Below are positions 25,542 to 26,818 of a DNA stretch of 64,000 nucleotides, one piece after another. Where the stretch lies: NCBI RefSeq assembly GCF_007197995.1, contig NZ_VKKH01000004.1, positions 186,001 to 250,000 of the forward strand. The letters are read 5' to 3'. The translations under genes were made by a program, and so were the position numbers. The number at the start of each line of letters is the position of its first letter. Position 1 is the first letter of the stretch. This DNA comes from Aliiglaciecola sp. M165 (lineage in GTDB: Bacteria; Pseudomonadota; Gammaproteobacteria; Enterobacterales; Alteromonadaceae). The notes below the pieces were generated by a model. The model was not told the DNA's origin and did not search any database. It saw only the letters and a program-made list of their open reading frames with translations.

Positions 25542-26459
25542 ATGTATCTGAACGAAACGCCTGATGAAATTTCACGTCCCCTCAAACTAATTTGGACAGT
25601 CGAAAATATTCAGTTACAGTCATACAATTCCAAGATAACGGTCAATAAATCTATTATGGAATCAATTTTTCACAAAGGTCAAAAATACACTCTACACATT
25701 GGTTTTAGGGATGACGACTCGCTTCGAATCCCCTTTAATCGACTAACCAAGAGAGTATATGGATTCGATTTTGAGAATTGGCACCAGCACGGATACTGGG
25801 GTGAGAAATACATCCCATATGCATTGATGCAAGGCGATGAGATGGTATCCAATGTATCGATAAGCATTATTGATTTTCTGGTTGATGAAAAAAAGCGCAC
25901 ATTTATTCAAATTGGCTCCGTCATGACCAATCCGGACAAAAGACATCAAGGGTTAAACAAGCTTCTGCTTGAAAAAGTGCTGCAAGATTGGCGTGATAAT
26001 TGCGATTTAATCTACCTATTTGCAAATAATACCGTTCTCGATTTCTATCCAAAATTTGGTTTTAGACAAATAGACCAGTGGCAATACGCTAGACAAATTA
26101 TTGCTAAAGGCAACAATCATAACGTCACTAAACTTGATATGTCATTGCCTGAAAACAAGCAACTCCTGCACGATAAAATCAATTGCTCGATTCCTGTATC
26201 TAAACTTTCTATGATCCAGAATGCTTCACTTGTTCTGTTTTACTACACCGTTTTTTTGGCACAAAACGTTTATCAGATTGATGAACTTAATGCCTTAGCG
26301 ATAGCAGACTTTGAAGATGGCGTCATGTATTTACACGATGTTTATTCTCAGAGTGATGTGGCATTAGATGAAGTGGTATCTGCGCTCGCAAACGATGCCG
26401 TTAATAATACCAATCCACACAAAGAAGTGGTCAGGCAGCGAGAAAGTAAATGGGCGTAA
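25542..26459 (+). pseudogene. GNAT-family N-acetyltransferase, truncated by a MITE-like insertion
   Basis: The open frame encodes 305 residues. The GNAT fold is seen in TFIQIGSVMTNPDKRHQG with the acetyl-CoA loop, followed by VLDFYPKFGF. Only the first 289 codons, ending at 26408, are native. The last 16 (beginning TNPHKEVVRQ) are read from the left end of the inserted element. Joining 26408 to 26672 restores the frame (AAT AAT ACG GTA GTG) and adds 48 codons ending FPVMSHA before a TGA at 26816. The ancestral protein was therefore about 337 residues. The start is uncertain: family members usually begin near the ATG at 25656 (MESIFHKGQK), and the 25542 ATG has only a distant AGGG. Because the N-terminal acetyltransferase fold is intact, some activity may remain. 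Confidence 0.85.
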
Positions 26460-26527
26460 TCAAGGCGCTTGAATGAAGGAAGAGTGGGGCTCTTTTAAGT
26501 TCAAGCAACGCTGAGTACGCCCATTTA
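26447..26527. repeat. Internal hairpin 1 of the MITE-like element
   Basis: TAAATGGGCGTA (26447-26458) is the exact reverse complement of TACGCCCATTTA (26516-26527). Further in, GCTTGAA (26467-26473) pairs with TTCAAGC (26500-26506), and AAGAG pairs with CTCTT around a G-rich loop. The whole 81 bases could fold as one long stem. Confidence 0.75.
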
Positions 26528-26543
26528 AATCTCGCCCGAAGGG

Positions 26544-26640
26544 AATGTCCCAGCGGCTTTTGACCTGCATTGTCGCTATTTGAAAGGGAACCACCCTTCG
26601 GGCATAGCGACGCTTTGTTCAAAAACCGCTGGGCGCATTC
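26544..26640. repeat. Internal hairpin 2 of the MITE-like element
   Basis: GAATG and CCCAGCGG (26549-26556) pair with CCGCTGGG (26626-26633) and CATTC (26636-26640). GTCGCTAT (26572-26579) pairs with ATAGCGAC (26604-26611), and AAGGG with CCCTT at the tip. An additional copy of CCCGAAGGG (26535-26543) is the reverse complement of most of CCCTTCGGG (26594-26602), giving an alternative pairing. Confidence 0.72.
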
Positions 26641-26671
26641 TGACTGATCACTTCTTTATGTGGATTGGTAT

Positions 26672-26818
26672 ACGGTAGTGCTAGGCTTTACCCCGCTTGA
26701 TAGCGGTGCATTTGACATACATAAACTGATTCCTGACGATGTTCTATTTGTACTCGACGACAAACACGGAATTTTTGAGAACAACAAACTCATGTTCCCC
26801 GTGATGTCTCATGCCTGA
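26672..26818 (+). pseudogene. Severed 3' end of the GNAT acetyltransferase gene
   Basis: Reading from ACG at 26672 gives 48 codons without interruption, beginning TVVLGFTPLDSGAFDIHKL and ending NNKLMFPVMSHA with TGA at 26816-26818. This tail resembles the C-terminus of this GNAT subgroup, as I remember it, and is in register with codon 289 of the upstream part. The reading frame is still intact, so the insertion may be fairly recent. The 111 bases after the stop show no feature. Confidence 0.82.

Follow-up and report, generated by a model that had tools for sequence, protein, structure and literature searches.

The stretch of Aliiglaciecola sp. M165 DNA analysed here (64,000 nucleotides, hereafter the window) carries an open, complete-looking frame of 305 aa at positions 25542-26459 in the window ORF list, which encodes a GNAT-type acetyltransferase and whose 3' end lies in an inverted repeat. 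The locus raises the question of whether this gene is naturally short or represents a truncated allele that has taken its end from elsewhere. The first-pass annotation of the window, made from the letters alone, had proposed the latter, and the 305-codon frame and inverted repeat it described were both confirmed. The GNAT domain was recognised by Pfam (PF13527, 38.4 bits versus a cut-off of 25), together with related GNAT domains, and it ends before the insertion point defined below. An NCBIfam search of the GNAT proteins gave no family above its cut-off, while a PDB search with the protein of the closest homologue (locus L032) gave weak matches to known N-acetyltransferases; many low-scoring matches of the same protein to an unrelated viral glycoprotein were treated as chance. 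A promoter and terminator scan gave no excess over shuffled sequences. The host bacterium is probably marine, judging by the habitat of its family, Alteromonadaceae.

To examine the integrity of the gene, its head (288 residues) and the frame found downstream of the repeat (tail, 48 residues) were searched apart, and both matched the same continuous frames in other genomes, which means that the GNAT gene was once one piece. In L032 (genome G023) the head match was 69% over 251 aa and the tail match 62% over 47 aa; in the more distant L033 (genome G193) the values were 37% over 235 aa and 48% over 46 aa. The collinear full-length homologues that the first-pass annotation had asked for therefore exist, and they continue through the junction in one frame. 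In the reverse search, the intact G023 protein aligns to the home genome in two parts, residues 2-252 falling at C24:211656-212408 and residues 252-299 at C24:212672-212815; the gap between these is exactly 263 bp, as is expected of a truncated allele with a donated C-terminus. The severed tail (47 codons and a stop on the + strand, 26675-26818) matches the C-termini of L032 and L033 and residues 252-299 of the G023 protein; it ends FPVMSHA, with the stop at 26816-26818, and the GNAT frame no longer reaches it. The two natural ends that were read, FPVMSHA in L032 and FPLLAHA in L033, differ from the TNPHKEV end of the called ORF, which had been named as the ending that would speak for a naturally short protein. 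In a plasmid collection, ten records contain a more distant GNAT; in eight of them the alignment extends to query residue 296 or farther, and in two Priestia records it ends at residues 259 and 278.

The GNAT gene is rare: matches were found in 5 of 196 and in 6 of 394 genomes, the home genome being counted in both, and several of these matches are weak and cover the GNAT domain only. It is absent from all eight same-genus genomes listed in the 196-genome search, so that no empty site can be demonstrated in a close relative, and a scan of named genomes did not reveal any that encodes the GNAT.

The start of the gene appears to differ from that of the called ORF. The G023 protein starts where codon 38/39 of the called ORF aligns, the first 38 codons have no counterpart in this closest homologue, and the DNA alignment upstream of the G023 start position contains gaps that are not multiples of three. 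Most likely, the gene starts at the ATG at 25656 (codon 39), which places the GNAT head at 25656-26407 on the + strand, as delimited by the Pfam domain, by the homologues L032 and L033 and, for its start, by L032. The position of the homologue's start and the non-triplet gaps upstream of it point to an ancestral protein of about 300 residues (299 in G023). Thus, the reconstruction of the first-pass annotation holds in that the FPVMSHA tail joins the GNAT frame, but its length of about 337 codons has to be reduced to about 300.

The sequence separating head and tail is a mobile element of 263 bp (26408-26670), delimited by its terminal inverted repeats, by genomic and related copies and by its fold. 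The inverted repeat spans 32 nt with 91% complementarity (26407-26438 with 26640-26671), of which the left 31-bp terminal repeat (26408-26438, + strand) and the right one (26640-26670, - strand) belong to the element, whose ends read TACCAATCC...GGATTGGTA. On the left it is flanked by the trinucleotide TAA (26405-26407) and on the right by TAC (26671-26673), so the window copy's own target duplication is imperfect, one base having decayed. When the element is removed together with one target copy (266 bp), the flanks align with L032 codon for codon, without an indel. The excision suggested earlier (26409-26671) produces the same string as removal of the element itself, but it leaves both target copies and hence one codon too many. 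The last 16 codons of the called ORF and their TAA stop (26409-26459, + strand) lie inside the element, as had been claimed. Its longest internal ORF (63 aa, minus strand, 26431-26622) has no Pfam match, nor has the downstream frame ending FPVMSHA, and there is no transposase gene inside. A frame at the equivalent place occurs in four of five near-full home copies (L001, L003, L004 and L005, not L002) and is not found there in the divergent copies examined; for this reason the minus-strand ORF is treated as spurious, in agreement with the initial suggestion.

The target duplication was established across the element family. Full-size copies were defined as 255-284 bp in length with TAC...GTA ends and matching arms, copies with damaged ends being left out. 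Among 80 such rows from the loci retrieved, 61 had identical 3-bp flanks (TTA/TTA in 35, TAA/TAA in 26); one row (L128) re-used an already paired end, and its removal gives 60 of 79. Random re-pairing of left and right flanks yielded a mean of 32 and a maximum of 43 identical pairs of 80 in 2000 trials, and identical flanks of 2, 4 and 5 bp were found in 1, 0 and 0 rows. These counts indicate that the element makes a 3-bp duplication of TWA targets. Together with the dispersed copies and the terminal repeats, this duplication bears out the earlier description of the element as MITE-like.

We consider it very probable that a 263-bp MITE inserted at the TAA near the 3' end of the GNAT gene, duplicated these 3 bp and left a truncated product. 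According to this scenario, a non-autonomous DNA transposon would have entered the TAA trinucleotide, translation of the gene would now run into the left terminal repeat and stop after 16 foreign codons, and the product would thus lack its last 47-48 residues; it is probably inactive or altered, with a presumed loss of GNAT function. The end repeats and the fixed 3-bp TWA duplication suggest that the element was moved by a cut-and-paste reaction, presumably supplied in trans by a DDE transposase preferring TWA targets. Such a preference is characteristic of some IS5-like and PIF/Harbinger-like enzymes.

Two other readings of the gene should be weighed against this insertion. One starts from the open, complete-looking state of the called CDS: the GNAT would be short by nature, with an inverted repeat lying by chance in its own C-terminus, and the downstream frame would be unrelated. 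Against this reading, the homologues run on into the downstream tail and the repeat is a dispersed element; the match of the G023 protein in two pieces 263 bp apart refutes it, and we regard it as practically without probability. It is also conceivable that the element has donated a gene end and that the truncated GNAT is still a working, perhaps altered, enzyme. The head contains no further stop along its entire length, its GNAT domain lies before the insertion, and its dN/dS against L032 is 0.116 over 249 codons. Yet the severed tail is equally constrained (0.119 over 47 codons) and is conserved in distant relatives. Because the constraint on the tail equals that on the head, most of the dN/dS signal predates the insertion and is uninformative on the truncated form; moreover, with synonymous sites near saturation, these ratios mainly indicate selection on the tail during the greater part of the period since the split. 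We regard a functional truncated enzyme as unlikely and retain probable inactivation, or alteration, by the MITE insertion.

The home genome contains, besides the window copy, four near-full copies of the element with 92-97% identity, one with 74% and many shorter matches. The element end sequence was found there 40 times with no more than three mismatches, versus 0 for a reversed control. Shortened copies with both ends present measure 161, 145, 84, 79 and 46 bp. The 263-bp copies are mutually 95-97% identical, and a 278-bp variant is 89-92% identical to them; the latter lies with the 84-bp copy within 1164 bp (L005:616-1779), both being TAA-flanked. When seven near-full home copies were compared with ORFs of at least 90 aa, the window copy alone cut a long ORF, although a 102-aa ORF in L004 also overlaps an element end. 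A fairly recent insertion into the GNAT gene fits these data, with a duplication that is no longer pristine. The disruption of the gene as such is an ordinary event, and the more interesting part of this locus is the element family.

This family is widespread and structurally conserved. Matches were found in 10 of the 196 genomes, the home genome included, and the named copies among the matches listed belong to Paraglaciecola, Shewanella, Colwellia, Alteromonas and Pseudoalteromonas. In genome G095, which appears to be Paraglaciecola chathamensis S18K6 (Alteromonadaceae), the end motif occurs 168 times. Copies closely resembling those of the home genome are present in P. chathamensis and P. 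mesophila. Shewanella copies from four named species (L147, L161, L165, L172, L180, L192, L205 and L219) are 92-95% identical to the P. chathamensis copy L102, and Colwellia copies are 61-65% identical to the same copy. The simplest reading of these values is that the element may have been exchanged between families, as represented by Shewanella and Paraglaciecola. A Psychromonas stretch, at 54% identity to the window copy, is a doubtful member of the family. Two contigs with a Planctomycetota-type metagenome-bin label (L171 and L206) also show the end pattern, which reflects either a binning error or a wider spread. Several P. chathamensis contigs (G095 contigs C2 and C61; loci L144, L151, L182 and L218) break off within about 7 bp of the inward edge of the 22-bp terminal repeat, a pattern to be expected if the assembler could not resolve this repeat, or a longer element that has the same ends and was left unassembled.

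The length of the element is nearly fixed: 71 of the 79 full-size copies measure 261-264 bp, while identity to the window copy drops to about 60%. The window element folds far more stably than its shuffled versions (z = -13.6; none of 200 shuffles as stable), and this value and the copies elsewhere in the genome show that the inverted repeat is not due to chance. An RNAalifold consensus of 16 copies contains 78 pairs and forms two hairpins between the end repeats, hairpin 1 (GCGAG...CTCGC) at 26438-26535 and hairpin 2 at 26542-26641, both delimited by the consensus fold and by covariation in the 16 copies. In this alignment 91.8% of cells are paired and 55 of the 78 pairs have changed on both sides; the cells with two-sided change number 281, where shuffling gives 89.0 +/- 7.5 and sliding of the partners gives 36-64. 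The consensus fold was derived from the same alignment that was used for covariation. In Rfam, the window segment 26000-27200 had no match at E up to 1, and four other loci had matches below the gathering score only.

Such data can be read as evidence that the interior of the element is kept by selection, as hairpins of single-stranded DNA or RNA which matter for its movement or for its hosts, and is not decayed filler. The fixed length at about 60% identity and the excess of two-sided changes favour this reading. On the other side stands the origin of the fold from the very alignment scored, as well as the fact that correction between the arms of a palindrome can keep them matched without selection. 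Since such correction is able to mimic covariation, wobble pairs (G-U versus A-C) were counted in 17 non-redundant copies chosen from 111 element sequences, some places having been fetched twice and one sequence of ambiguous orientation being skipped. The G-U/A-C counts were 15/0 in hairpin 1, 22/31 in hairpin 2 and 24/17 in the end repeats, that is, one-sided in hairpin 1 with the opposite lean in hairpin 2, where 17 of the 22 G-U come from one invariant pair and where 12 pairs have more A-C and two have more G-U. The asymmetry shifts with sampling and ignores relatedness: the counts were 17/8, 25/15 and 18/18, respectively, in the 16-copy alignment, and 24/3, 36/44 and 43/29 in a set of 28 copies at 96%. 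These counts hint at selection on the + strand for hairpin 1 and on the opposite strand for hairpin 2, in a manner that depends on sampling and leaves kinship out of account, and the asymmetry is suggestive, not conclusive, as evidence on whether the selected molecule would be RNA or DNA. In addition, the copies shortened to 46-161 bp indicate that the interior is not needed for persistence. We consider selection on the interior a tentative possibility.

The transposase moving the family was sought in several ways. In ten genomes, the inspected loci with PF01609 and PF13586 domains did not have the element ends as their own ends, and PF13359 gave no match. Pairs of TACCAATC-type ends located 320-5000 bp apart with equal flanks were sought in 252 loci, and looser rules were applied at 700-3500 bp; the pairs looked into (L214, L005 and, in part, L213) enclosed nothing recognisable as a transposase. 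The end pair of L214 proved to be two separate MITEs around ordinary genes and that of L005 two neighbouring home copies, and both were rejected as parents. In the Colwellia contig L213 (960-3445), perfect 30-bp inverted ends (TACCAATTTGATTAAATTTC...), each bordered by TAA, lie 2486 bp apart and enclose a 616-aa frame, which, judged from its start only, does not look transposase-like. Further candidate end pairs are present in L228, L239 and L249. Similar interiors beside unpaired ends, among the matches listed, consist of MITE-length matches, overlaps within a locus and copies of an IS4-family element of genome G072; the longer interior matches among those listed cover 1019 bp in Shewanella (L159/L217) and 398 bp (L039/L102).

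By its 3-bp duplication, here TTA or TAA, the window family resembles Tourist-like MITEs and the PIF/Harbinger or IS5-like transposons; it differs from these transposons, its own ends being TACCAATCC, in that no related transposase was found in the three families searched. For PIF/Harbinger, a 3-bp duplication is given in an excerpt of PMC2213677. The family also resembles prokaryotic MITEs such as QMITE2 of Coxiella, as far as an excerpt of PMC10969869 describes it, in being short, devoid of a transposase gene and bounded by terminal inverted and direct repeats, with many dispersed copies, truncated variants and strong stem-loop folding. Unlike QMITE2, for which the same excerpt (PMC10969869) gives direct repeats of 7-9 bp, the window family has direct repeats of 3 bp, a length nearly fixed across several genera, a covarying interior and no parent insertion sequence found. 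Shewanella oneidensis MR-1, a bacterium of the same order, also has described MITEs (Romine et al. 2008, as cited in the excerpt of PMC10969869), and the window family, whose novelty is provisional, occurs in four named Shewanella species. The window element family is not named in the literature searched, which comprised titles and the starts of abstracts and covered few subscription journals.

For genome annotation, the locus illustrates clearly how a CDS that looks intact can be a truncated allele whose end is borrowed. The family itself, an orphan MITE with near-fixed length and a covarying fold, offers material for studying the constraints on MITE interiors and the transposase which moves them.

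Genome G072 carries an IS4-family element that mostly lies within MITE-like palindromes. It encodes a 392-aa transposase (NF033591, 291 bits), has a shared core of 1295 bp with one or both target copies included, and is flanked by 9-bp copies that follow the pattern CCCNNNGGG, with CCCGAAGGT in a single case. Of its 20 matches in G072, 16 loci were read (L257, L261, L264 and L268-L280), and in 15 of them the 9-bp copies are identical. Fifteen of the 16 copies sit in the middle of a MITE-like palindrome, with flanks read by eye, eight having TACCAATTC-type ends (two damaged) and seven GTTGATCTTT-type ends; the sixteenth adjoins a tRNA-Arg cluster, in a hairpin which by eye resembles a terminator. 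Having its own ends and its own 9-bp duplication, with the TACCAATTC ends outside it, this element is a separate one and was rejected as the parent of the family. The central CCCGAAGGG site of the window element (26535-26543) has the form of the 9-bp sites duplicated by the G072 element, and the CCCNNNGGG site is kept in 12 of the 16 aligned copies of the window family. It looks as if the IS4-family element uses palindromic elements as landing sites, which suggests that MITEs can be harmless docking places for larger elements.

On a broader view, the window family might form an independent class of structured mobile DNA within the Alteromonadales, as opposed to a decayed insertion sequence: selection would hold its length and its two-hairpin fold even as sequence drift lowers identity to about 60%, the element would pass between families (Shewanella, Paraglaciecola), a TWA-specific transposase would move it in trans, and its central CCCNNNGGG would serve as a landing pad for an IS4-family element. 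Taken as a whole, we regard this model as doubtful. The seven G072 palindromes with ends around GTTGATCTTT (L257, L261, L264, L269, L271, L273 and L279) form a second MITE-like family, which has the central CCCNNNGGG layout in common with the window family and differs from it in the ends.
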